Virus record (IMG/VR): IMGVR_UViG_3300039210_000244
Location: 20,462-84,461 of that record
Direction: 5' to 3' (one strand)
Source: a virus
DNA: 64,000 bases
The notes below the pieces were generated by a model. It was not told the origin of the DNA and searched no databases. It saw nothing but the letters and a program-made list of their open reading frames with translations. Each line of letters begins with the position of its first letter. The first letter of the stretch is position 1. A program made the position numbers and the translations under genes. This document shows, one piece after another, positions 49,482 through 64,000 of the stretch.

Positions 49482-50393
49482 TCACACGCTGTCAATTCTG
49501 GCGTCGATATTCTTCATCACCTGCGCAAGAAACGTGGCACCGCGCCGGTTCTGCATGGTCGCGGGGATCAGCTCCGCGGCCTCGGCGGCGAGCACCCGGC
49601 CCAACTTTGCCCGGTCGCTGCCGTTCAGCCCGGCGATCATATTCGCCGCAAGCATCACCTGAATTGCCACCTGTTTCGCCGTATCCACTTTCTTCTGGGC
49701 CGAGACTCCGGCTGCCTCGCAGGCGAGTTCAAAACTCTGCTGCTTCATCGAATCCAGGTAGCTGTAAAGGATGGCGCCCGCGCGCTTGTAGTCCTTATCC
49801 ACACAGCGCATCAGCAACGTTTCAACATGCTCGAAGGGCATCGATCCGATTGCCCGTTCCACCAGCCATTGCTGGAGCGAACCGCTAACAATCAGCTTCC
49901 AAATTTGCTCTGAAAGCCCGGCCATTTTCTGAAAAATACGGACACGGTTTACGCTTTCACCCAGCGCGGCGGCGGCGGCTTCATCGGTGTCGCCCAGCTT
50001 CTTCATCCGGACCGCGGCGTTTGCGGTTTCGCGCAGTGTCATCGACTGCCGCGCGTGGTTCTCGATCACCTGCGCTCTAAAGCGGCTCGCTTCGTCATCC
50101 CGGTTGAGCGTGACACGCGCCGGGATTGATTGGATGCCGGCGAGGCAGTGAGCCCGCCAGCGACACTCGCCCATGATGATTAGATATTTTCCCGGCTCGC
50201 TGGGATTCTTTCGGACGGTAATGGGTTGGAGCAGTCCCTCCGCTTTAATCGACTCGGCGAGTCCGTTTATGTATTCCGGAGTGAACTCTTTGCGGGGTTG
50301 GTCCGGATCAGGCGAAATCAGGCTTGTGGGAATAGCGAGTACGCTATGCGCGATCTTCGGTTTCAGTTCAGCAACGGGTTCGATAGCAATCAT
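49482..50393 (-). CDS. ParB/Spo0J-family protein
   Basis: 303 residues. N-terminal ParB domain: ISPDPDQPRKEFTPEYINGL, then GLLQPITVRK and the CTP/nucleotide-motif MGECRWRAHCLAG (about 75-87). A helix-turn-helix follows (RETANAAVRMKKLGDTDEAA, about 122-150). The C-terminal about 100 residues are helical. Known ParBs bind DNA at parS and act as CTP switches; here it may serve plasmid-prophage partition, gene regulation or replication. Promoter element 50449-50459 and leader upstream. Confidence 0.8.
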   Translation of the reverse strand: MIAIEPVAELKPKIAHSVLAIPTSLISPDPDQPRKEFTPEYINGLAESIKAEGLLQPITVRKNPSEPGKYLIIMGECRWRAHCLAGIQSIPARVTLNRDDEASRFRAQVIENHARQSMTLRETANAAVRMKKLGDTDEAAAAALGESVNRVRIFQKMAGLSEQIWKLIVSGSLQQWLVERAIGSMPFEHVETLLMRCVDKDYKRAGAILYSYLDSMKQQSFELACEAAGVSAQKKVDTAKQVAIQVMLAANMIAGLNGSDRAKLGRVLAAEAAELIPATMQNRRGATFLAQVMKNIDARIDSV

Positions 50394-50549: not shown

Positions 50550-52061
50550 TTACGCGAGACGCACCGGCATCAAGACCGCCAGTTTATCGCCAGCCTCAAC
50601 GAGCACCGCGGAAACGTCGTCTTTGACGCTCATCGTGATCCGGTCATCAGTCCACGAATTCACCACGTCGAGCAGGAAGATCGGGTTGAGCGCAGTCACA
50701 AGCGGCTCCGCCAAATCAGCGCCGCCGGCCACCTTGATCTCTTCTTTCCCGGTTCCGATGCTCACGTTGAGCACGTTGATCCTCAGCAGTCCTGCTGTGA
50801 TCGTGAGCTTCACCGAATTGGCTTTCTCACTGTTCAGCACCATCATTCGTCCGAGCGTGTTGAGCAGCTCGACCCGATCGATCACGAGCGTCGTCGCCCG
50901 GTCCTTCGGAATAACCTGCGCGTAGTTCGGGTAATTGCCGGCGATCAGCCGAAAGACACCGCGGTAGGTGTGCCCATTGGCATCCGATGCGATGCTTAGC
51001 CGGTTGCCTCCATCGTTGAGCGAGGCCGTCACCGTTGCGTCGAGCGGTACGCTGGCGCGGATTGCTTCGGCTGCCAGCGTGGGAATGATCAGCACGCCAG
51101 GCCGGGAAAGGATCTTGTCAGCGCAGAGTGGAACGCGGACGAGGCGCCGGCCATCGGTGGCCACGACATCATCGCGGGTGTTGTCCTTCGAAAGCGCAAC
51201 CGCGATCCCTAATAGGATATACCGCGTTTCATCGGCGCTCGCGCACTTGATGGTCTCGGTCACGACCCGGGCGAGGTTCTTGCCCGTGATTTCCATCACT
51301 GGTTTCTCACCAAGCGCCGGCATCGGTGGCCATTCCGTCGATGAAATCCCCATGATTTCCGTCCGGTTCTCAATGTCTGAGATCTTCAGCATCCCGCTCG
51401 TGACCTCGGCCATCATGAAGTCGGACGAGCAGCGCGCGACGAACTTCGAGAGGACCGTGAACGGAACCGCCAACGAGTGTTCACCGGTTGTTTCGGCCGG
51501 GACTTCGGTCGCAATGAAGCTATCCAGATTCGTTCCCTCCACTTTCAGCCGACCGTTGCCGAACGTGATCAGAGCGCAGTTCAAAATTGGCATCGTCGCC
51601 TTGGCGCCCGTGACCTTCGCGACGCACTGGAGCTGGCGGATGAATACCTTGCGGCTCACCTTGAACATCCCGAGCGAACTCGTCTTCGAGAGCGGTGTTT
51701 CGGCCTCGACCGGGATCTCGGTCTGTTCGTGGGCCGGCTCGAATGCGACAACGTTGGTCGGTTCGGGCACCGGGTCGTTAATGAAACCTTCTACGACTGG
51801 CGCATCTGACTCGGGTTCGTCGAGCACAGCCACAACAGACGGAGCGGCGCGCGTCGCGGACGTTTCGGCCGCGGTCGGTGCGATGACCTCCACTTCGGCG
51901 ACGGGCGCCGCATTTGGCACGGGCTGGAGCTTCATGATCTGATCGATCAGCTTCGTGCTTTTCGTCGCGTAGGGCGATTTGATGCCGGCAACGAGAGCGG
52001 CTGAGATCAGGTCTTTGCGGGAGAGAGCAACGAGGCTCTCGGATGTATGGACGTTTTTCAT
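50550..52061 (-). CDS. Sliding clamp (DnaN-like) with N-terminal SAP/Rho-N-like domain
   Basis: 503 residues. The last about 370 match the beta clamp: FKVSRKVFIRQLQCVAKVTG start, VVATDGRRLVRVPLC, FRLIAGNYPNYAQVIPK and C-terminal LAVLMPVRLA (compare DnaN end MPMRL). Residues 1-50 (SLVALSRKDLISAALVAGIK and SPYATKSTKLIDQIMK) look like a Rho-N/SAP helix-extended-helix DNA/RNA-binding domain, joined by an Ala/Pro/Glu-rich linker (about 50-130). Clamps tether DNA polymerases and other factors to DNA. Leader and promoter precede it, terminator follows. Confidence 0.85.
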   Translation of the reverse strand: MKNVHTSESLVALSRKDLISAALVAGIKSPYATKSTKLIDQIMKLQPVPNAAPVAEVEVIAPTAAETSATRAAPSVVAVLDEPESDAPVVEGFINDPVPEPTNVVAFEPAHEQTEIPVEAETPLSKTSSLGMFKVSRKVFIRQLQCVAKVTGAKATMPILNCALITFGNGRLKVEGTNLDSFIATEVPAETTGEHSLAVPFTVLSKFVARCSSDFMMAEVTSGMLKISDIENRTEIMGISSTEWPPMPALGEKPVMEITGKNLARVVTETIKCASADETRYILLGIAVALSKDNTRDDVVATDGRRLVRVPLCADKILSRPGVLIIPTLAAEAIRASVPLDATVTASLNDGGNRLSIASDANGHTYRGVFRLIAGNYPNYAQVIPKDRATTLVIDRVELLNTLGRMMVLNSEKANSVKLTITAGLLRINVLNVSIGTGKEEIKVAGGADLAEPLVTALNPIFLLDVVNSWTDDRITMSVKDDVSAVLVEAGDKLAVLMPVRLA

Positions 52062-52131
52062 GTTCTATTCGGGTTCGGGTTTTGTTTCGGGTACTAACTG
52101 ACTGAACAGAGTAGAATAAAAAGACCGATAC

Positions 52132-52142
52132 TTGTAAATATA
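52132..52142 (-). promoter_or_regulatory. Putative phage promoter element (TATATTTACAA)
   Basis: Most divergent TnTTTACAT-family copy, 71 bases upstream of the clamp start and next to terminator 52149-52178. Confidence 0.45.
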
Positions 52143-52148
52143 AAAAAC

Positions 52149-52178
52149 AAAAGGACGAAGATTTTTCTTCGTCCTTTT
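52149..52178 (-). terminator. Terminator of the KH-protein unit
   Basis: Perfect 12-bp stem AAAAGGACGAAG/CTTCGTCCTTTT followed by GTTTTTT on the minus strand, merging with the promoter element. Confidence 0.9.
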
Positions 52179-52212
52179 AATGCCGGATAACCGGGATAAA
52201 CTGGCGTTCAGG

Positions 52213-52815
52213 TCACGCTTTGTTCGGCTGGAGAACGACGCGGATAATCCGACCGTGATTCTTTCCAATGCCGTCGAATATGTTCTTGATCGCGCCTATG
52301 ATCGCACCATCGGTGCCGTAGTCGAATTGTATTTCTGGACCGTACACCTGCGGATAATCCTCCGCCTTCACTTTCACGACGAAGATCGTCGTCGTACCGA
52401 TCTCCGATGAATCGATGTCCATTGAGTCTGGATTGAGCAGGAACGGTGAGATCACCCGGCGCAACAACGGCTGCACCTTATCGAATTTCTGCGTATCAAC
52501 TCGGCTGTAAACGAAGCCTTTTACCGGCGCCACGTTGGGCGGCGGGCCTTTGTCATCCACAATAATATGGGACTCGCGATCGATCAGTTTGCAAAGGCTG
52601 GCCGCAATACCTTCGAGCGCCTTGTAGTGCTTCCCCCTCGTGCCAATAACTCGGCGTACGTCTTCCTGTTCGGTGCGGATTCTGAAAGCGACAAGCGGCC
52701 CGTGCTCGGAGCTTTCGACCTTCACGTTTTCGGGATGCGTGACGATGCTCATGACAAGCGCGGTTAAGATTGAGCGGATTTCAATAATTTCATTAGTCTC
52801 GGGTGCTGTGTTCAT
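52213..52815 (-). CDS. KH-domain (KhpA-like) RNA-binding protein
   Basis: 200 residues from ATG at 52815. The segment DVRRVIGTRGKHYKALEGIA (about 52-72) has the KH signature GxxG in the right helix-loop-helix setting, followed by SLCKLIDRES as in KhpA. The second half contains a degenerate repeat (FDYGTDGAIIGAIKNIFDGI) suggesting a duplicated KH fold. KhpA binds RNA and stability factors in bacteria; phage versions are uncommon. Leader AACCTGAACCGAAAAC before the start. Confidence 0.7.
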   Translation of the reverse strand: MNTAPETNEIIEIRSILTALVMSIVTHPENVKVESSEHGPLVAFRIRTEQEDVRRVIGTRGKHYKALEGIAASLCKLIDRESHIIVDDKGPPPNVAPVKGFVYSRVDTQKFDKVQPLLRRVISPFLLNPDSMDIDSSEIGTTTIFVVKVKAEDYPQVYGPEIQFDYGTDGAIIGAIKNIFDGIGKNHGRIIRVVLQPNKA

Positions 52816-52873
52816 CTGGTTGGGTTGTTTTCGGTTCAGGTTTCGTGAGGAAAAAACCCAGTAAACCAAAGCA

Positions 52874-52901
52874 GCCGGCCTCATTCGGTGGAGAGGCCGG
52901 C
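52874..52901 (-). terminator. Weak terminator-like hairpin
   Basis: GCCGGCCTC/GAGGCCGGC 9-bp stem between the 52915 and 52815 genes; the T-run is about 20 bases further on (TTTTTT), so activity is uncertain. Confidence 0.45.
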
Positions 52902-52914
52902 CACCTAATGATTG

Positions 52915-53409
52915 TTACTCAGGCTTCAGGACGAACTCCGTTTGTCGGAGATCCTCCTGCGTTTGGCCGGAGACTGAGTGTTTTTCGGAATAAGAGGTTG
53001 TGACCTTCGTATCCATCATCTGGAGGTTCGAGTGGTCGATCACGATTGAGACTGCCAGAGAAACCTTCGCGGCTTTCTCGCTTTCCTTGCCCGCTTTTTG
53101 CGCGGTCTTGCAGATCCCCTTCCACATGTCGGCGAGCTGCACACCGACCTGTCGGCACACGAAGTCCGCGGTCGCCATGTAGTTCTTAACCTCGGCGTCG
53201 TTGCAGCCGGTGACGGACGCTCCGCACACCTGCACATTGGGGAGAACTTCGCCGTTCAGCCGCGGAGGCGGTGGAACGATTTCATTCTCGGCGTCGCCGC
53301 CTTCTTGCGCGGATGCTTCGAGAGGAACAACTGGCGCCATGCCGTCGGTTTCCGGGGCTTCCGAGTTGGTCTGTACCTCGTCGGCTGGATTTTGTTTACG
53401 CTTAGCCAT
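52915..53409 (-). CDS. Unknown replication-region protein
   Basis: 164 residues. N-terminal about 55 residues are disordered (Glu/Pro/Ala-rich); the rest is helical then strands (VSLAVSIVIDHSNLQMMDTK). Two Cys-containing spots (VCGASVTGCND). Leader CCCGAATAGAACCCGAA. No family recognised. Confidence 0.6.
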   Translation of the reverse strand: MAKRKQNPADEVQTNSEAPETDGMAPVVPLEASAQEGGDAENEIVPPPPRLNGEVLPNVQVCGASVTGCNDAEVKNYMATADFVCRQVGVQLADMWKGICKTAQKAGKESEKAAKVSLAVSIVIDHSNLQMMDTKVTTSYSEKHSVSGQTQEDLRQTEFVLKPE

Positions 53410-53434
53410 TTTATTTCGGGTTCTATTCGGGTTT

Positions 53435-55225
53435 CTAGTTTGTCAGGAATTTCCTGACTAAGTTCTTCAACAGAGCTGACTGTGTAAGCTCTTCGCCGTC
53501 CGCTGTCGAGGCTGTAATCTTCGCCTTGTCCGAAACAAGCTCCCAAAGATCGTCATCGATAGTGTTTGGCGCTAAGAAGTAATACGCATTCACGCAGTCC
53601 TTTTGTCCAATGCGATGCACGCGATCGACCACCTGCTGATGCTTTGAGTGTGTCCACATCAACTCGGCAATTCCGATGTGCGAAGCTGCGGTCAAGGTGA
53701 GTCCGAAACCAGCCGCCAGCGTTGATCCGATGAACAACCGGCACCGCTCGTCTTTCATGAATTTGTCCTGCTCGCGCTGCACGTCGTCGCAGCCGCCGAG
53801 CACGGTGGCCGGATGCCACTGAGCGAGACCGCGCACGAGCGCATCGAGCACGGCTTTATGGTGAGCATAGATCACGAATTTTTCGCCGCCTTCGAGAAAC
53901 GTGTCGATCCAGTCGATGATCCAGTTGACCTTGCCGATACCCGCGCACTGTCGGAGCGCGTTGAGTTTTATAAGATGCTTGGCATCCATCCGCGTTTGGC
54001 CGACCAAACCGCCAGCCTCCGCCATCATCCACGCGACAATATCTTTTTCGATCCGCCGATACTCGACCTCGTTCGATAGCTCTGCCTCGTACACCGCTTC
54101 GATTTTGTCGGGTAGCTCCTTGAGCACATCTTTCTTGCGGCGCCGAATCAGCACCGTACGCGAAAGCAGACTGTGGAGTTCGAGCGTGTTGGTCGCGCCG
54201 GTGAGATCAAAGCCGAACTTCGTCCGTTTACCGCCGCAGTACCGCGTGGCGTAATGGTGCCATCCTCCCATCTTAGTCATCACATCCAGGAACGTGAGCG
54301 GCGCGATGAGCTCGGCGGGCCGGCCGTTCTCAATTGGTGTGCCTGATAGTACAAACCGAACTGGCGCTTCAGACAGCTGCGCGATCGCCGTGGCCGCCAT
54401 GCACCTAATCGAGTCACCGTGTTTGATCCAGTGACCTTCGTCGCACGTGACCGATTTCGGGCGCACGAAATCCGGGAAGAAAAACTTGCGCGTTCCAATC
54501 TCGTGGGCAGCGGCTTTGCGAACTTTCGCCTTTGGACTCGCGAGCTTGTAGTGAACGAGTTTGTGGATCTCTGAGTAACCCAAAATCGTGATCTCTGCAA
54601 AATCGTTGGCCAGTAGCGAAGCGCTCCGCTTCGGCAGCCACTTTCGGCACTCGTGAAGCCAGTTCTGTTTCAGCTTCACCGGGCAAATGATCAACGCCGG
54701 GTAAGCCTGCTTCAGTTCGATGGCGGCGAGAGCCTGAAGGCTTTTTCCGGTTCCCATGTCGTCGCCGTTGTAGGCGCGTTCCATCGTCGCCATGAATTTG
54801 ACGCCGGATTTCTGGTAGTTTTTCAGCGACTTCTCCAGCTCTGGATTGCCGGGAATATGCAGGTCGATCGCTTCCTCGGTCGCGGACTGCGCGAGCGCGT
54901 TGACCGCGGCTGATTTCTTGAGCTCAGCCGACAGCTTTTCCCGCGCGTCCTTCGTTGGCGTGATGCCCCAAGCAATGAACTGAGTGAGCTGCTTCACCGC
55001 GTCGGGCGCCACCGCGATCGTCCATGCAAACCCGTGCGTGGACGGCTTGCGCTGCTTCAACGCCCGCACGAGCTCGACGAACATCAAATACTCCTGCCGG
55101 TGCGTCTTCAGGAAACCATGGTCAAACGAGAGTGTGAATTCACCACACAAAAACATCAGCACTCCCTTGCGGACGTTCTGCGCGACGGCGCCTTCGAGCG
55201 GCGGTTTCTCCAGCGTCGTGCTCAT
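53435..55225 (-). CDS. SNF2-family helicase
   Basis: 596 residues from ATG at 55225. SNF2 core: Walker A-like NGDDMGTGKSLQALAAIEL (about 155-173), TCDEGHWIKHGDS (DEAx box variant DEGH), VRFVLSGTPIENGRPAEL, KFVIYAHHKAVLDALVRG and ATPase arginine motif QQVVDRVHRIGQKD. Remodelling/translocase activity on double-stranded DNA is expected; in phages it may aid replication or recombination. It is coupled by ATGA to the DUF1064 nuclease gene. Confidence 0.9.
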   Translation of the reverse strand: MSTTLEKPPLEGAVAQNVRKGVLMFLCGEFTLSFDHGFLKTHRQEYLMFVELVRALKQRKPSTHGFAWTIAVAPDAVKQLTQFIAWGITPTKDAREKLSAELKKSAAVNALAQSATEEAIDLHIPGNPELEKSLKNYQKSGVKFMATMERAYNGDDMGTGKSLQALAAIELKQAYPALIICPVKLKQNWLHECRKWLPKRSASLLANDFAEITILGYSEIHKLVHYKLASPKAKVRKAAAHEIGTRKFFFPDFVRPKSVTCDEGHWIKHGDSIRCMAATAIAQLSEAPVRFVLSGTPIENGRPAELIAPLTFLDVMTKMGGWHHYATRYCGGKRTKFGFDLTGATNTLELHSLLSRTVLIRRRKKDVLKELPDKIEAVYEAELSNEVEYRRIEKDIVAWMMAEAGGLVGQTRMDAKHLIKLNALRQCAGIGKVNWIIDWIDTFLEGGEKFVIYAHHKAVLDALVRGLAQWHPATVLGGCDDVQREQDKFMKDERCRLFIGSTLAAGFGLTLTAASHIGIAELMWTHSKHQQVVDRVHRIGQKDCVNAYYFLAPNTIDDDLWELVSDKAKITASTADGEELTQSALLKNLVRKFLTN

Positions 55226-55695
55226 GACAAAACGTCCTGCTTGTACCATTGGCCGGATACGCGCCACACGAGGCGGAATTTTGCCCACGTGTGCTGCGTT
55301 GCTGCTATTTTCAAAAACTCGAATCCTCCGCGAAAAACTTTCGGCCCCTTCACTTCGATGAAGAGTTTTTCTTCGGGCAAAAAGAAATCAGGTTTATACC
55401 AGTCGCCGTTTGCAAGTTTGAGCCGAATCCCTTGCGGAATTGCCAGCTTGCCTGGGAAGAGCACCCGAAGCTGATCTGAATAGGCCAGCTCCAGTTTGTT
55501 CATCAGCGGTTTTTTCGACTGGCGCATCCGTGGCTTCACGCCATTTGTTCCAGCCTCCAGCTCAGTCGCTTCTTCGAGCGGGTAGGCGTGCGTGACCGAC
55601 ACGCTGAGCGGCTTCCTGTCGGCACGCGCGGCTTCGATCTGCGCGTGGAAGCGCGGATGAATCTTCGCCATGACATCTGTCATTTTCATTCCCAT
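55222..55695 (-). CDS. DUF1064-like restriction-fold nuclease
   Basis: 157 residues. MNKLELAYSDQLRVLF opening, then NGDWYKPDFFLPEEKLFIEV with KG, the D...E-x-K core of the DUF1064/VRR-like nuclease family (PDF, EVKG). Usually found in phage recombination clusters and used in DNA processing. TAATG overlap with the upstream gene. Functionally probably paired with the SNF2 helicase. Confidence 0.75.
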   Translation of the reverse strand: MGMKMTDVMAKIHPRFHAQIEAARADRKPLSVSVTHAYPLEEATELEAGTNGVKPRMRQSKKPLMNKLELAYSDQLRVLFPGKLAIPQGIRLKLANGDWYKPDFFLPEEKLFIEVKGPKVFRGGFEFLKIAATQHTWAKFRLVWRVSGQWYKQDVLS

Positions 55696-56141
55696 TAGAG
55701 AAACGAGGTTTGGAGCTCACGACGCACCGGCGTCTGGCGGAATTTCTTCTGGGCGAAGGACAGACTGCGCAGCTCCAGCAATTCGCGGAGCTGCTTAACC
55801 TCGAACTTCAACGCAGCGTTCTGCGCCACGAGCACCGATCGATCGGTCTTGTCCTCGCGCACGGCCTGCGCTGACTGCCCGTTGAGCCGGTATGAATATA
55901 GACCGTTCCCATCATAGCGGCGTTCGACGTGCCAGCTGCCAAACCGCACCTTGCGGAGATCCCGCAAACGTGCGCTCACGCTGGCCGGCGGAGCGCCCAC
56001 GAGAACGGCGATCGTCTGCAGCGTGCGCCATTCGCCATCCTGCATGAGATCGCGGACAGCGGCGAATTGGAGCGTGAGCCTGGATTCGTCGCGCTCCGGC
56101 TCGTAGGTGGCTCCGTCAAATTGTACTGCTTGAGTGCTCAT
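55695..56141 (-). CDS. Winged-helix regulator-like protein
   Basis: 148 residues from ATG at 56141. The segment VRDLMQDGEWRTLQTIAVLV then ASVSARLRDLRKVRFGSWHV and ERR (about 30-75) has the winged-helix layout; the C-terminal about 60 residues are a leucine-rich coiled coil (AALKFEVKQLRELLELRSLS). Likely DNA-binding dimer. Hexamer leader ACCCGAACCCGAACTGAA. Confidence 0.65.
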   Translation of the reverse strand: MSTQAVQFDGATYEPERDESRLTLQFAAVRDLMQDGEWRTLQTIAVLVGAPPASVSARLRDLRKVRFGSWHVERRYDGNGLYSYRLNGQSAQAVREDKTDRSVLVAQNAALKFEVKQLRELLELRSLSFAQKKFRQTPVRRELQTSFL

Positions 56142-56167
56142 TTCAGTTCGGGTTCGGGTTGCTAATT

Positions 56168-56389
56168 TCAGTCTGAGTAGAGAACTGAGTCTCCGTCGGC
56201 ATCGCAGTGCTCGGGTGGCCATCCGGCTTTGCGGATCGTCATCATACGCATTGTGCGCGAATAGATGCGGAAAAGAAAATTCAGCAGCTCCAGCAGCGCC
56301 GATTGGGCAATGGCGAGCGCGAGAAAAGCCAGTATGCCGAGGAAAATAGCCATCCTCGGATTGGCAGACGTGTATTCAAAAACGTTCAT
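56168..56389 (-). CDS. Small membrane protein
   Basis: 73 residues with one hydrophobic N-terminal region (MAIFLGILAFLALAIAQSAL) and a basic middle. Starts near a run with no hexamer leader. Unknown. Confidence 0.55.
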   Translation of the reverse strand: MNVFEYTSANPRMAIFLGILAFLALAIAQSALLELLNFLFRIYSRTMRMMTIRKAGWPPEHCDADGDSVLYSD

Positions 56390-56410
56390 ATAATTCGATG
56401 GTTGTTACGA

Positions 56411-56896
56411 TCACTTGGACAAAATTTCTTCGGTTCGCAGTGCACGCACTTCTTCACTCGACACGTCGATGACCCAGCCGATGCGGCGGCTTTCGCTGAT
56501 CTTCGTTTTCGCAAGATCGTGGTGAGCCCGGCACGCGGTCCGCATGTACTTCCGGCAGTAGAGTAGGGGGCCATTGCGCCCGGCGGCGTGGTGGAGATCC
56601 ATCACGTCGCCCTTCAGGATCGAGCGCGTGCATCCCCCCGGGTACTGGCAGCCGGGATGCTCGGCGAAGTGAATAATCTTCTCGCAGTAGTATCGACGAT
56701 CATCCGCCGCCTTCGTTGGCGATCGCTGACGGATACGCTTCAGCGGCTTCTTTCCAAGGATCACCCGAGCGAACGAATGCTTCAATACGCAGAGCTCGCG
56801 GCGTGCCTTGCGCTCGGCGTTCACCTTTGGAATCGGCTTGCGCGGTTTCGGTCCGGCGGGCTTCCGAGAGAGCCAGTCTGTGAACGGTTGGCTCAT
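56411..56896 (-). CDS. HNH endonuclease-like protein
   Basis: 161 residues from ATG at 56896. GGCTRSILKGDVMDLHHAAG, RNGPLLYCRKY and ACRAHHDLAKTK give Cys, HH and terminal HH in the HNH arrangement; the N-terminal half is very basic (KPRKPIPKVNAERKARRELC). Like NinG/other recombination-region HNH proteins. Coupled to the second clamp by ATGA. Confidence 0.7.
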   Translation of the reverse strand: MSQPFTDWLSRKPAGPKPRKPIPKVNAERKARRELCVLKHSFARVILGKKPLKRIRQRSPTKAADDRRYYCEKIIHFAEHPGCQYPGGCTRSILKGDVMDLHHAAGRNGPLLYCRKYMRTACRAHHDLAKTKISESRRIGWVIDVSSEEVRALRTEEILSK

Positions 56897-57996
56897 TTGA
56901 GTCTCACCGGCATCACCATCGTTTGTAGGTCGCCGCAGTTGACGGCCAAAGGCGACATCTCCGGTTTGACCTCTTTGATGTTGAGCACCGTCGTCTCGTC
57001 CGTGCCGGCGTTCACCGCATCGAGCAGGAAACGATAATTCACCGCCACTTTGCCTGACAAGTTGTGAGGATTCGCGCAATCGAGCTCGTCCTGCGACGTA
57101 TCTTCGTCACCGGCCGTCAGGAGGATTTTTTGCTCTTTGAATTCGAGACAGATGGCGCTGAATTTTTCGGTCGTTGCCAGGGCGACAAGTTTGACGGCCT
57201 TGCGTAGTCCCTCGCGATCAACCATCACGCCCTTCGTTTCGTATTGAGCGAGCACACCGCGCCAATTCGGATAATTGCCGGCCACGACTTTCGTCTGGAA
57301 AACGATTTCGCCGTCAGGTCGGTCGATCACGAATTCAACCTGCTTGTCGTCAAGCGTGACCTGCACTTTCCCGGTTCCTTCGAGCAGGCGGACCAACTTG
57401 TCCACAGCGGTATCGGGAATGATGATCGAGAGCTGACCGTCACTCGCTTCGTTCGACGTGTTGACGTGCATTCGCCGGCCGTCCGTCGCGACGAACGTGA
57501 TCCCCGTTGGCGTTTTCGCGACCAACACGGATTTAATGATGTAGCGTTGCTCCTGATCGGACGCCGAGGCTGCAACCGAGTTCAGGCGGTCGGCCAAATC
57601 CTGCTGCTTCAGCTCCATCATTACACCCGACGCGATCGGCGGGCGAATAGGGAACTCCGCGCCGGACATCCCCATGAATCGATAATCCGACGGGCCGCAC
57701 TTCATCGAAATGGCAAATCGGTCGGTGACTGTGATCGTGATCTCGCCTTCCGCCAGCGCGCCGACGATGCCGGTGAATCGGCTGCCGGGCAGGCAAACGC
57801 TGAAATCCTTTTCGATCACCGCCGGCGTGCTCGTGCTGATGCACATATCGAGATTGGTCGATGTGAGGAATACGCGCTGAACGGCCTTGCGGGCTTCGAT
57901 CATGACACACGCCAGGACCGGCAGTGTGGCTTTGGGCTGGGCGACGCGCGCACCGACAGACAGAGCGGCGAGGAATTTTTCTTTCGTGATTTTCAT
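56893..57996 (-). CDS. dnaN: Second sliding clamp (DnaN-like)
   Basis: 367 residues, the normal length of a bacterial beta clamp. Conserved features: LAALSVGARVAQPKATLPVL, FVATDGRRMHVNTSNEAS, FQTKVVAGNYPNWRGVLAQ and the terminal MVMPVRLK. It differs clearly from the 503-residue clamp and lacks the N-terminal domain. ATGA overlap with both neighbours (HNH below, SWIM above). Two clamps and no polymerase in view suggest host Pol III recruitment (inference). Confidence 0.85.
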   Translation of the reverse strand: MKITKEKFLAALSVGARVAQPKATLPVLACVMIEARKAVQRVFLTSTNLDMCISTSTPAVIEKDFSVCLPGSRFTGIVGALAEGEITITVTDRFAISMKCGPSDYRFMGMSGAEFPIRPPIASGVMMELKQQDLADRLNSVAASASDQEQRYIIKSVLVAKTPTGITFVATDGRRMHVNTSNEASDGQLSIIIPDTAVDKLVRLLEGTGKVQVTLDDKQVEFVIDRPDGEIVFQTKVVAGNYPNWRGVLAQYETKGVMVDREGLRKAVKLVALATTEKFSAICLEFKEQKILLTAGDEDTSQDELDCANPHNLSGKVAVNYRFLLDAVNAGTDETTVLNIKEVKPEMSPLAVNCGDLQTMVMPVRLK

Positions 57997-58322
57997 TTCG
58001 GGTTCGGGTTTTCTGACTGCTTGAAGAGAGCGACTAAGTTTTTCTTAAACCGGTAACAGAGGATCTTTTCCGCCCTCCTGATATGCTTGCACTTCGAGCG
58101 TTCGCTATGCTTTTTGATGACTCGATCCCGCAGCAATGGACGTATCGTGAAGTCGAAATTCTGGCAGCTACAAGCGCCGCTACAGTCGTTCTCGTCGAGG
58201 TGAACGGTGTGCGAGATTTCCGGATCATCCGTGCTCTGAAAATGCCATGTGAGCCAGTCGTCAGAGACGAATTTGAGGACACCGCACGCACGAGCGTCAT
58301 CCTGTCGGACTTTGTTTGACAT
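57993..58322 (-). CDS. SWIM-type zinc-finger protein
   Basis: 109 residues. CSGACSCQNFDFTIRPLLRD followed by SKCKHIRRAEKIL gives the CxC...CxH SWIM arrangement. SWIM fingers occur in DNA-binding and recombination proteins. Element 58375-58385 and hexamer leader ACCCGAACCCGAACTGAA upstream; ATGA coupling to the clamp downstream. Confidence 0.7.
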   Translation of the reverse strand: MSNKVRQDDARACGVLKFVSDDWLTWHFQSTDDPEISHTVHLDENDCSGACSCQNFDFTIRPLLRDRVIKKHSERSKCKHIRRAEKILCYRFKKNLVALFKQSENPNPK

Positions 58323-58393: not shown

Positions 58394-60331
58394 TCAGAAG
58401 GGTTGATCCTCGTCGATTTCTTCAGCTGGCGCAGGCGGTGCTGACGGCGCGTCTGTCTTCGCATCGAGAAACGAAAAACCGGTGTCGGTATAATGGCCGA
58501 AGAATTGTTTTCCTCCCGAAACGTACCATAGATCGATCGTCGGCTCGGCGCCGTCGTCGTTGCGCTGCTTGCCGACGATCATGAGCGCGTCCGGCTTTGC
58601 CCGTTTCTTCTGAGTGATCAGCGCCGGATCGGTCTTCATCTTCTCCATCATCTCGATTTCCTTCTCCTTCTTTTTATTCCGCCATACTGTGATGACATTA
58701 TGCGCCTCATCGGTGAGCTGACCGCTGCCCTTCACGTCCAGCTTGTTCGCCTGCTCCTCTTCGTTCTTCAGCTTGCGCGGGTGCGCGACAACGAACAGGT
58801 GCACGTCGCTCCCGTCCACGAACTCTGAAAAACCACCGATAACTTCGGCCTGCGCGTCCAAGTCGTCAGAGCTAATTCCCATCTTCATCCACGAATCGAT
58901 GATGAAAAAGCGGCAGCCGTGCCGGCGGTACGCATAGCGGAAAGTCGTCAGCACGTCTTTCCAGTTCGCGCGGCCAACGCGCTCGTAAAACCAGATGCCC
59001 TTCTCGATCGCGTCCATCGCAGCCTCCGCTTTCGGCCGGTCTGGCGATTTTTCGCCAGTCTGCTGTCGGATGAAAAATTCGATCGTCTGTTCCGGGTGCA
59101 CCTCTAACGAGGCGACGCATGACGAGTAACCGAGCTTCGCCAGATAGTTTGTAATGAAGGACAGACAGACCGTTTTGCCGCTGCCGTTCATCCCCGTAAT
59201 CACCGTCCACTCGTGCCAGCGCAGATGAAACGGATAGTTGCCAAACGGAAGCGGAATGCCGCGCTTCGTGTTCGCGTCCGCGCTGAACATGCGAGCCAGC
59301 ACGGCATCGCGGTACTCGCCCGCGTTGCGCAGTGCCGCTGGGTCCAGGGTCTTCGCGGCGTTGAACGCGATGGTCAGTTCAGCCTCGCGGCAGGCCTTCA
59401 ATAGTTCGTTAGCGTCCTTCAGCGGGAGAGCGATGACGAAACAAATCTCCCGACCCAGCCGCTTGACGATGGAGGCGCACGCCTGCTTCCCCGGCTCGTC
59501 CATGTCCATCGACAAATACACGCGCTCGAAGCGGGAAATAAATTCCCAGTCTTCCCCGATCCACTCGTCATTCGGATCTTTGCCGTCCTTGCCTTCCCAC
59601 TTCGCGCCGAAGGGAACAGAGCAAACACACAAACCCGGGATCTTCATCGACGCCCACGTCAGCGCGTCTGGCTCGCCTTCGCATATCAACAGATAGCGAT
59701 CCGCCGGTTTGACCGTGTGTTTTCCGAACAGAACTTTGGGCGTGTCCTTACTCGTCCATGTCTTCTTTTTTCCATCCTCCGTTCGCTCCAGAGCAAGGAA
59801 CTTGAGCATCTGCGCAGCGTGCGGAGCGTTCTCGTGGAGATACGGGAAGACGATCGCAGTTCCGTCCTCGGTCATTGCGATCTTGTAGGCTTCGACTATC
59901 TCGCGCGGGATCTTACGATCTACCGTCAGGTAGAACTCGGCAGCGTTTGCGATCCACGTCACACCGCGTTTGTCCGGTTTCGAGTAAGCACGCGGTTCTC
60001 TCTCTTTCTTCTGGAACTTGGCCCCGCCGTCCATGTTGACGCCGTGCGCCACCAGCCATTCCTTCGCCTCTCGGAGCGCGTCCTGAAAAGGAACGCCCCG
60101 CGCCTGAACCCAGAGCTCCAGCATGTTCGAGCCGCCGTCGGTTCCGCCAAAGTCTTTGAAGATCCCGGCCTTGTCGCCGTGGCATGAGACGCTGAGAGAG
60201 TGGCCTCCGACGCCGGATGCGAGCCGGCCACCGACCCACTCACCTTTCACCATCATGCCGTCGGGGAGTAGCAGTTTACAGACATCCTCGGCGCGGTCCG
60301 CCAAGGCTTTTTTGATTTCGGGTAATTCCAT
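58394..60331 (-). CDS. Primase-helicase (Twinkle/T7 gp4-like)
   Basis: 645 residues. The Toprim-associated N-terminal part has GHSLSVSCHGDKAGIFKDFG; TOPRIM motif LLICEGEPDALTWASM (about 215-235) and VYLSMDMDEPGKQA (about 280); RecA-like helicase with Walker A VITGMNGSGKTVCLSFITNY (about 385) and Walker B RFFIIDSWMKMGISSDD, plus HLFVVAHPRKLKNEEEQANK. The C-terminus is acidic (EEIDEDQPF), as in phage helicases that bind polymerases. Expected to prime and unwind the replication fork. A canonical zinc-binding domain is not evident. Confidence 0.9.
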   Translation of the reverse strand: MELPEIKKALADRAEDVCKLLLPDGMMVKGEWVGGRLASGVGGHSLSVSCHGDKAGIFKDFGGTDGGSNMLELWVQARGVPFQDALREAKEWLVAHGVNMDGGAKFQKKEREPRAYSKPDKRGVTWIANAAEFYLTVDRKIPREIVEAYKIAMTEDGTAIVFPYLHENAPHAAQMLKFLALERTEDGKKKTWTSKDTPKVLFGKHTVKPADRYLLICEGEPDALTWASMKIPGLCVCSVPFGAKWEGKDGKDPNDEWIGEDWEFISRFERVYLSMDMDEPGKQACASIVKRLGREICFVIALPLKDANELLKACREAELTIAFNAAKTLDPAALRNAGEYRDAVLARMFSADANTKRGIPLPFGNYPFHLRWHEWTVITGMNGSGKTVCLSFITNYLAKLGYSSCVASLEVHPEQTIEFFIRQQTGEKSPDRPKAEAAMDAIEKGIWFYERVGRANWKDVLTTFRYAYRRHGCRFFIIDSWMKMGISSDDLDAQAEVIGGFSEFVDGSDVHLFVVAHPRKLKNEEEQANKLDVKGSGQLTDEAHNVITVWRNKKKEKEIEMMEKMKTDPALITQKKRAKPDALMIVGKQRNDDGAEPTIDLWYVSGGKQFFGHYTDTGFSFLDAKTDAPSAPPAPAEEIDEDQPF

Positions 60332-60582: not shown

Positions 60583-61164
60583 TCAGTCCTTCAGATCGAT
60601 CACGAGCGGGAGGCCGTTGGCGTGCGTGCCGGCCGGACGGAAACGAGCCGACCCGTTCAATTGCTCAGCTAGATTGACCTCGATCGCCGTCGAACTTCCG
60701 ACCGGCATCACCTTTGTCAGCTTCGCCACGCCGCGGGTCAGCACGAAGGCCATCGCCTCCGTCGAGTAACCGCCGAACAAGATGCTATCAGCTCGGAGCT
60801 CGCCCTTGTTATTCTTGCTGAAGATCCATCCCCAGCTGTACGGCTTGCCCTCGTTGCCGGTGTGACCGTTGCGAGCCATCAGGTAATCGGACGCAGCGAC
60901 ATTCTCGGCCAACACCTCGAACGCGCTGACCGTTTTCCCGTGGTCCCGCCAAAACTTTTTCATCATCAGGTCACGGCGTTGGCCGGTCACTGGCATGATG
61001 ACTTCGGGTACGATCCGCTTGACAGCTCCCATGATTTGGCGCCACGGGAAAGTTTTCCCGTTTGGTTCATCTTCGGACGACAGCGCGAGCTCAGGCTCCG
61101 GCGCCACGTAATCCGGTAGATCGGCTGGGTTCAGTCCGCATTCTTCGAGTGTGAGAGTATTCAT
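60583..61164 (-). CDS. Replication-associated protein, loader/organizer-like
   Basis: 193 residues from ATG at 61164. The C-terminal half (KKFWRDHGKTVSAFEVLAEN, then SDYLMARNGHTGNEGK and PYSWGWIFSK) resembles the domain at the end of phage replisome organizers/helicase loaders. It lies just upstream of the primase-helicase, where such a partner is expected. Leader of GAA units with ACCCGAACTGAACTCGAA. Tentative. Confidence 0.45.
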   Translation of the reverse strand: MNTLTLEECGLNPADLPDYVAPEPELALSSEDEPNGKTFPWRQIMGAVKRIVPEVIMPVTGQRRDLMMKKFWRDHGKTVSAFEVLAENVAASDYLMARNGHTGNEGKPYSWGWIFSKNNKGELRADSILFGGYSTEAMAFVLTRGVAKLTKVMPVGSSTAIEVNLAEQLNGSARFRPAGTHANGLPLVIDLKD

Positions 61165-61861: not shown

Positions 61862-63154
61862 ATGCATCGGATGGCATCCAAACGACATCCAAAAGAACAA
61901 CCGAATGCCAACCGAGTGCCCACTCGGGGCGTTTTGGAGATCGAGAGACCCGGCCGTCCGAATCCATACGGCGTTCAATGGCCGGAACAAGAGTTCGATC
62001 AGGTCACGCACAAGAGCCGGCGCGTGCGCAAGACTCTGTTCTTCCCGACGACTGCTTCGCGTGACGAGAAAGCTCGGGAGCTGCGCGACGCGCGCCGAAG
62101 CCGCATGATGGTCGCCAGCGTTCCGCGAGACGAGATCGCCAACTACCGCGCGTTCAAGACCGCCATCGGCGAGACGCCTTGGCAGAACGTCATCGCCGGC
62201 TGGCGGGCGCATCTCATGTCCGCCGGCCTCGTTCCATGCGACATGACCGTCGAGGCGGCTGGTACGGAGTATCTGGCGAAGATGAAAGAGCTCTTGGATA
62301 AAAAGAGGATCAGCGCCGACACCGAGCGACACAAGCGCCACAAGATTCGCCTCTTTGTTGAGGAGTTCGGGGATCTGACTCTCGACCGCGTGACCACCGC
62401 CATGATCGAGGACTGGATCGATGAATTCGACGAGATCCAGAGCGATTACACCTTCGACGGGTACGCGAAGCACATCCGCGCGTTCTTCGGCTACTTCGTC
62501 AAGGACAAGAAGGTTCTCCGCGATAACCCGGGCAGTGGATTGAAACATCGAAGCGACGGAATCGGCGAGGTGAAGATCATCAGCGTCGCACAAACCGCTC
62601 GCCTGTTTCACGTCTGTCTCACCGAACCCAAATTCAAGCCGATCGTCGGACGGCTGGCGATGGAAGCCTTCATCGGCCTGCGCTTCGGCTCTGGCTGCCG
62701 ATTGGAGAGGGTTGACATCAATCGGGAGGACAAGGGCGTCACCCTGCCGAAGCACAAGCTCAAGACCAAACGGCGGCATTACATCGACGGCCTGCCCGAA
62801 TGCCTCTGGAGCTGGATCGATGTCACTCCCGACGAGTGCTGGGAACTCACACCCCGGCAATATATGGGGCTGAAGAGCGACATCTTCACCAAGGCCAACG
62901 TCCCGCATCCCCACAATTGTCTGCGGCATGGCTTCGCAACTTACTACACCGCGGCGTTCAAGAATCCCGGCGCGACGGCAACGATTCTGTGCCACCGGGA
63001 TCAACAAGAGCTGTGGGATCATTATAACGGGAGAGCGACGGAGGCTGATGGGAAATTGTACCAAGAAATCACGCCGACAACGGCAGAGCGGATTTTAGTT
63101 GGCTACGTTCCAGCACGTGCTGCGCAAGGCGGTCGGCTGCAATCTCCGGCGTGA
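61862..63154 (+). CDS. int: Tyrosine recombinase (phage integrase)
   Basis: 430 residues from ATG at 61862 (or 61874). SAM-like core-binding domain about 115-215 and catalytic domain after it: Arg in FIGLRFGSG (about 280), Lys in HKLKTKRR, HxxR in HPHNCLRHGFATYY (about 355) and the second H with Tyr in CHRDQQELWDHYNG. It integrates and excises the prophage. Divergent from all leftward genes and convergent with the 63069 gene, with which its 3' end overlaps by 86 bases. Confidence 0.9.
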   Translation: MHRMASKRHPKEQPNANRVPTRGVLEIERPGRPNPYGVQWPEQEFDQVTHKSRRVRKTLFFPTTASRDEKARELRDARRSRMMVASVPRDEIANYRAFKTAIGETPWQNVIAGWRAHLMSAGLVPCDMTVEAAGTEYLAKMKELLDKKRISADTERHKRHKIRLFVEEFGDLTLDRVTTAMIEDWIDEFDEIQSDYTFDGYAKHIRAFFGYFVKDKKVLRDNPGSGLKHRSDGIGEVKIISVAQTARLFHVCLTEPKFKPIVGRLAMEAFIGLRFGSGCRLERVDINREDKGVTLPKHKLKTKRRHYIDGLPECLWSWIDVTPDECWELTPRQYMGLKSDIFTKANVPHPHNCLRHGFATYYTAAFKNPGATATILCHRDQQELWDHYNGRATEADGKLYQEITPTTAERILVGYVPARAAQGGRLQSPA

Positions 63155-63742: not shown

Positions 63743-64000
63743 ATGGATACCAAACGAACACCTTTCTGCATAATCGAGGATCATGTTGGCGTCGCCGAAG
63801 CGATCAGCTTTGCGATCGAAGCGACTCATCACATGCGGACCGCAGGCAGCTTCAACTCGCTGAAAGCCGCCAGAGCCGGTCTCGTCAGATGCAATCCGCG
63901 CGTAGTCGTCGTGGACTGGAGGATCACCGATGGCACTGGCCCTACAATCGTTGCTGAGGTTAAAGCTGCACTCCCTGAGTGCCGATGGCTTCTCTACACC
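63743..64000 (+). CDS. Host response-regulator receiver protein, truncated by window edge
   Basis: At least 86 residues, C-terminus beyond the window. Receiver-domain features: the acidic pair in FCIIEDHVGVAEAIS, the phospho-acceptor Asp in VVVVDWRITDGTGPTIV, and the conserved Thr in CRWLLYT. No phage leader precedes the ATG; on this evidence it is the first host gene. Confidence 0.7.
   Translation, partial: MDTKRTPFCIIEDHVGVAEAISFAIEATHHMRTAGSFNSLKAARAGLVRCNPRVVVVDWRITDGTGPTIVAEVKAALPECRWLLYT

Follow-up and report, generated by a model that had tools for sequence, protein, structure and literature searches.

The viral DNA presented above raises the question of why a single phage should carry two different DnaN-type sliding clamps and no DNA polymerase of a known family. 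The record analyzed, IMGVR_UViG_3300039210_000244, comprises 84,461 bases, and the window, the whole 64,000-nucleotide stretch under consideration, corresponds to its bases 20462–84461. The two clamps, a protein of 503 residues (clamp A) and one of 367 residues (clamp B), are encoded in the same gene block (Table 1). The explanation that we favor overall, with somewhat better than even confidence, is that the phage would place two DnaN rings of its own on the DNA polymerase III (Pol III) of its host, each ring being a homodimer and the work being divided between them.

Two intact and distinct clamps

Both proteins are confirmed as intact DnaN-type sliding clamps that are distinct from each other. 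All three Pfam DnaN domains score over the curated cut-off in clamp A (59, 35.3, and 29.7 bits) and in clamp B (87.9, 56.4, and 38.7 bits), and the NCBIfam equivalog TIGR00663 "dnan" (cut-off 137.65) is passed by both, with 142.7 and 181.6 bits, respectively. They also match phrog_6615, a family named "DNA polymerase," weakly and ranked below phrog_947 (processivity factor). AlphaFold predicts clamp B to be a complete three-domain beta subunit with a mean predicted local distance difference test score (pLDDT) of 92.8, and clamp A to have a complete three-domain core from about residue 131 (pLDDT about 84–97 per ten-residue block). The core model of clamp A matches 7evp_A with Z 40.7 and a root-mean-square deviation (rmsd) of 1.9 over 363 aligned residues; the model of clamp B matches 6ams_D with Z 40.6 and an rmsd of 2.4 over 353.

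Clamps A and B are 27% identical, and a recent duplication is rejected on this ground as the origin of the pair. The initial annotation described the two as DnaN proteins distinct from each other, which the domains, the equivalog, the fold, and this identity bear out; it also considered that one might be a decayed duplicate, and neither clamp is visibly decayed or, judged from its sequence, a recent copy of the other.

The N-terminal tail of clamp A is modeled as two short helices (residues 15–24 and 32–44) followed by a disordered linker (about residues 46–127), with low pLDDT throughout, and a Pfam search of residues 1–60 up to E 1 gave no match. By eye only, it resembles helix-loop-helix modules of the SAP or Rho-N type.

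Rarity of a second clamp

Two profile scans of viral contigs yielded at least 80 clamp loci each and have 24 contigs in common (names compared by eye), which gives 136 distinct contigs. Among the matches listed, and within the stretches seen, a second full clamp is present in none of the 136 other clamp-bearing IMG/VR contigs; the flanks covered were at most 10 kb around each locus, and a distant second clamp would escape in records not searched whole. The clamp search was extended to the whole record for 50 records, namely, the 48 longest of the at least 80, Caulobacter phage Sansa, and a clampless primase relative (L097), with the other 32 records excluded; a clamp was found in 49 of the 50 and exactly one in 48. 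The 69-kb viral record G022 has one full clamp and, about 7 kb away, a 38-residue scrap of another (L214:10215-10394, E 2e-4). In INPHARED, clamp B matches 70 records at 70 places and clamp A matches 105 records at 105 places, and no matched record has a second full clamp.

The pair itself recurs: a near-identical IMG/VR contig, 3300001535_000001 (metagenome 3300001535), has both clamps at 100% identity, and contig 3300014827_000017, from another metagenome, is 99.97% identical across the 10.9 kb seen, a stretch outside the clamps. No publication on a phage with two DnaN proteins was found in the open literature searched; clamp terms are absent from PMC6536676, and the available part of PMC7556043 deals with the theta subunit. 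Within what could be searched, then, a phage bearing two clamps is a genuine oddity that has no match.

Absence of a phage polymerase of a known family

The whole record was searched in six frames for DNA polymerases of family A (PF00476), family B (PF00136 and PF03175), family C (PF07733), and family Y (PF00817), and none was found; controls were positive in 5–11 of 14 genomes, except for PF03175, for which the search is weak, its control matching weakly and in one genome. A script called 103 genes in the record, and among the 37 of the 103 proteins that were scanned against PHROGs, none has a polymerase as its main family. The initial annotation reported no polymerase gene in the window and proposed that the parts of the phage to its left be searched for one; for the known families, its statement now extends to the whole record, and a polymerase of a known family hidden to the left of the window is rejected, the record's first 20 kb (L003) being included in these searches. 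The phage genes could still include a polymerase of an undescribed family. No clamp loader family turned up among the same 37 proteins, a scan that was not aimed at loaders.

How ordinary this absence is was surveyed in 54 records: the 48 longest clamp records (>36.1 kb), Sansa, L097, the present record, Aurantimonas phage AmM-1, Rhizobium phage 16-3, and Paracoccus phage Pyei1, of which 52 are other clamp bearers. PF07733, PF00476, and PF00136 were each found in 0 of the 54, in a sample that is biased to temperate phages of Alphaproteobacteria, the source of the profile seed, and in which fragments may be frequent. The initial annotation started from the premise that single-clamp phages usually bring a polymerase; this premise fails against 0/52 other clamp bearers with a polymerase of family A, B, or C, and the missing polymerase therefore needs no special explanation here. 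Borrowing the host polymerase is ordinary for such phages, but bringing two different rings is not.

Partner pocket and ring interface

The clamps were compared with an Opitutaceae DnaN (L099) at 22 positions that we take to form the partner pocket, in Escherichia coli numbering, and at 13 positions that presumably form the ring interface. L099 reads RYILTGRRLPQVNFVPVMPVRL at the pocket positions. Clamp A agrees with it at 21/22, the sole change being A for P, and clamp B at 17/22, with five changes (I, M, G, M, and M), while E. coli DnaN agrees at 16/22. Overall identity to L099 is about 31% for both (110/361 for clamp A and 111/360 for clamp B), far below the identity of the pocket (Fisher p 5.6e-11 and 4.9e-06, respectively). 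At the interface, identity to L099 is 3/13 for clamp A, 4/13 for clamp B, and also 3/13 for E. coli, in a test of low power, and clamp A is without the basic/acidic pairing of E. coli beta. Viral clamps less than 45% identical to their nearest bacterial clamp keep a mean of 20.5/22 pocket and 5.6/13 interface positions (26 rows, near-copies included and clamps A and B excluded). A kept pocket with a freer interface thus seems to be a general trait of phage clamps, one that would fit the use of host partners.

It was proposed in the initial annotation that the phage redirects host Pol III; this stands as the likeliest role, in view of the host-type pockets and the lack of a known polymerase, and only the premise drawn from polymerase-bearing phages has to be dropped. 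On the side of possible partners, the 103 phage proteins hold no excess of clamp-binding motifs over shuffled sequences: the strict form QL[SD]LF occurs 0 times and Q[LMIV]x[LM]F once, against 0.77 expected. A QMKLF is seen at residue 185 of a 282-residue protein without a Pfam family (L003:12716-13564), with the count at chance level.

Of the 56 positions with 90% or greater conservation in the bacterial clamps compared, clamp A keeps 38 and clamp B 31, and other phage clamps keep a mean of 48.6. The poor score of clamp B, its five altered pocket residues, and the rarity of paired clamps, which may mark a passing state, would all suit a redundant or drifting leftover, a second DnaN gained through recombination or old duplication with a single one active at the fork. 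We regard this as unlikely, since both open reading frames (ORFs) are intact with complete predicted folds, both pockets are retained far above the protein background, the low identity of the pair implies a long coexistence without decay, and the copy of the phage in another record has both clamps unchanged.

Origin of the clamps and likely host

In a GTDB profile scan, Opitutaceae and Opitutae DnaN are closest to clamp A among the matches listed, at 30–32% identity (E about 1e-45 to 1e-42), and the closest to clamp B among the rows compared are an Opitutaceae DnaN and that of a bacterium grouping with Verrucomicrobiota. In the trees, both clamps sit on very long branches within the Verrucomicrobiota part or next to it, and clamp B groups with Opitutales at a Shimodaira–Hasegawa-like approximate likelihood ratio test (SH-aLRT) support of 95–98. 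Clamps A and B are joined in one tree (support 72), and clamp A joins a long-branched viral row (L067) in others; the two are possibly sisters, and long branches may be attracting each other. The comparison with host DnaN that had been suggested at the outset thus finds both clamps nearest to DnaN of Opitutales or other Verrucomicrobiota, among the rows compared. A host from the Verrucomicrobiota is likely on these sequence affinities, with Opitutales the most likely order.

Host genomes of this order usually have a single clamp: a DnaN match is present in 123 of 132 Opitutales genomes, exactly one in 121 of the 123, and two in each of G108 (where terminase and DUF5906 genes adjoin one copy) and G152 (on two contigs). 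The locus on contig 11 of G108 (L210:6625-7797) is an apparent Opitutales prophage, whose single DnaN gene neighbors a terminase of the gpA type and a gene of the DUF5906 type. Clamp B has one match in 17 of the 18 records or genomes to which the nearest loci belong and two in G053, one of which is cut short.

Genome record and gene content

The first 99 bases of the record recur as its last 99, apart from a single mismatch at the extreme end (a 98/99-base terminal repeat), and a response-regulator-like ORF, with a LuxR-type end recognized by eye, continues across the join (window 63743–64000 and L003:1-483). Both features lead to the reading of the record as a nearly complete circle, probably of about 84.36 kb, and there is probably no "left part" other than the first 20 kb of the record. 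The window had earlier been taken for the edge of a prophage; a prophage edge with host flank is rejected on the ground of the end repeat. The phage is probably temperate and circular, with a genome of roughly 84.4 kb.

The replication block comprises an initiation-like protein, a phrog_239 primase/helicase, clamp B, a possible nuclease, an SNF2 helicase, a KH protein, clamp A, and ParB (Table 1). Outside it are genes for a single-stranded DNA-binding protein (SSB), a UvrD/Rep-like helicase, a Dda/RecD-like helicase, an SMC-like ATPase, a second integrase, a terminase, a portal, and tail proteins. The primase/helicase is 35–37% identical to its counterparts in Pseudomonas phages, among the rows listed in the comparison.

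Table 1. Positions of the clamp genes, their leaders, and neighboring genes in the window.
Feature	Position	Strand	Remarks
Clamp A, DnaN-type sliding clamp	50550..52061	-	503 aa
Clamp A, three-domain core	50550..51671	-	residues 131-503; C-terminus MPVRLA
Clamp A, N-terminal tail	51672..52061	-	residues 1-130
Clamp A, leader	52062..52106	-	CCCGAA repeats immediately 5' of ATG
Clamp B, DnaN-type sliding clamp	56893..57996	-	367 aa; C-terminus MPVRLK
Clamp B, leader	57997..58041	-	two CCCGAA units directly abutting ATG
ParB-family partition protein	49482..50393	-	downstream of clamp A
KH-domain protein	52213..52815	-	adjoins clamp A
SNF2-type helicase	53435..55225	-	between clamps A and B
Possible nuclease	55222..55695	-	weak Holliday junction resolvase family match, E 0.0036; between clamps A and B
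Primase/helicase (phrog_239)	58394..60331	-	645 aa; two genes upstream of clamp B; E 8.1e-88
Replication initiation protein family (weak match)	60583..61164	-	193 aa; E 0.0039
Tyrosine-integrase family protein	61871..63154	+	phrog_1, E 2.3e-19; without Pfam match

A second, different tyrosine-integrase family protein is encoded at L003:15292-16263, which makes two such proteins in one phage. The primase/helicase ends in EEIDEDQPF and the phage SSB (L003:7712-8218) in NLDEDVSF; both C-termini resemble the acidic tip by which SSB contacts host replication proteins, a feature that would be unusual on a primase/helicase.

The clamp genes share a leader of hexamer repeats, and that of clamp A abuts the ATG of the 503-residue form and so supports this start. 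CC[CT]GAA occurs at most 45 nt upstream in 42 of the 103 called genes, compared with 15 of 373 control windows within genes. Tandem pairs of the units CCCGAA/CCTGAA number 28 record-wide, every one on the minus strand, and strong Shine-Dalgarno 5-mers are found for only 8 of the 103 genes. The leader may serve the phage as an unusual signal for the start of translation or transcription.

A proposed model: two phage rings on a host polymerase

To replicate its DNA, the phage would combine host Pol III with a primase/helicase, an SSB, and accessory helicases of its own, the host clamp loader would load both phage rings, and clamps A and B would each homodimerize apart from host beta. With a pocket almost that of the host and a flexible N-terminal arm, clamp A might serve Pol III much as host beta does; clamp B, with its five altered pocket residues and its gene near the primase/helicase block, might serve a narrower or different set of partners. 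The sequences make it quite probable that both clamps are functional and operate with host Pol III, and the phage SSB tip DEDVSF, which is like a host-type SSB tip, supports this picture. A division of labor between them is proposed more tentatively, and we would put it at somewhat less than an even chance. Its strongest hint is the difference in the pockets, host-like in clamp A and with three methionines and a glycine in clamp B, and the gene positions hint at it as well, clamp B being near the primase/helicase and clamp A near KH and ParB.

The same surroundings could speak for one clamp working in recombination, repair, or partition and not at the fork, the armed clamp A beside KH and ParB being one example: its 130-residue tail is predicted to form two helices and a linker, the KH and ParB genes adjoin it, and the stretch separating the clamps encodes an SNF2 helicase and a possible nuclease. 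This is improbable in our view, because the pocket of clamp A is the nearer to that of the host, as expected for Pol III binding, and its tail has no Pfam match and low model confidence. Least probable of all is an A–B heterodimer, or a mixing with host beta that poisons or retunes it, which could draw on the shared gene block, on the atypical interface of clamp A, which may need another partner, and on the toxicity to its host of the putative clamp gp35 of phage Adephagia (available part of PMC11373665), but which finds no support in an interface where A and B have 0 or 1 of 13 positions in common, depending on the alignment, against 3 or 4 of 13 with Opitutaceae, a comparison of low power.

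Several points weigh against two homodimeric rings on host Pol III with divided work. The loss of conserved positions may mean that some function has been lost. The lack of a clear clamp-binding motif leaves no phage partner visible for a special role, which weakens the claim that clamp B serves phage partners. The host is inferred: clamp A groups with Opitutales only when clamp B is present, and its placement without B is unsettled; a single-sequence scan of GTDB genomes with clamp A found no relative; in 132 Opitutales genomes, the matches to a 225-residue middle part of clamp A did not exceed 33% identity; and the exact leader dimer followed by NNNATG was found in 0/387 Verrucomicrobiota genomes.

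A two-clamp system in which homodimers of different partner preference let the phage choose the host enzymes that work at the fork and those that work elsewhere is a doubtful prospect at present. If it is true, "elsewhere" might be, for example, recombination or partition, with clamp A contributing a tethering arm and a binding face almost copied from the host clamp, and clamp B a re-cut pocket. The phage supplies a naturally occurring pair of rings that agree in pocket type and differ in pocket details and ring interfaces, and with it a means of testing if a virus can take over or sort host polymerases through nothing but a sliding clamp. The survey also corrects an assumption, as a phage with a DnaN-type clamp need not have a polymerase; DnaN-bearing phages without one are readily found in it and seem little studied.

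Comparison with known systems

A self-contained replisome of the T4 type has its own polymerase, clamp, and loader; the present phage differs in that no polymerase of a known family was found in it. AmM-1, 16-3, Pyei1, and Sansa likewise have a DnaN of their own and an annotated primase and/or helicase and have no match to a polymerase of family A, B, or C. Unlike the present phage, they carry one clamp each and infect alphaproteobacterial hosts, and their clamps are placed in the tree with alphaproteobacterial DnaN, unlike clamps A and B.

Adephagia gp35, a putative sliding clamp, is toxic when expressed, and its authors suggest an interference with host replication; like clamps A and B, it is a phage clamp presumed to cooperate with the replication machinery of its host or to target it. 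Its host is a mycobacterium, and one clamp gene is named in the available part of the article; the likeness is one of description, not of sequence (PMC11373665).

The DnaN of Opitutales hosts (e.g., L099 and L101) are the nearest relatives of clamps A and B and have the same type of partner pocket, but they are only 30–33% identical to the phage clamps, differ in ring interface residues, and are without the added tail of clamp A. The apparent prophage of G108, from the same host order, also has a DnaN beside its gpA-type terminase and DUF5906-type gene, with one clamp in the 15 kb seen that is 24–25% identical to clamps A and B. Every other record examined has a single full clamp, and the present phage departs from them with two.

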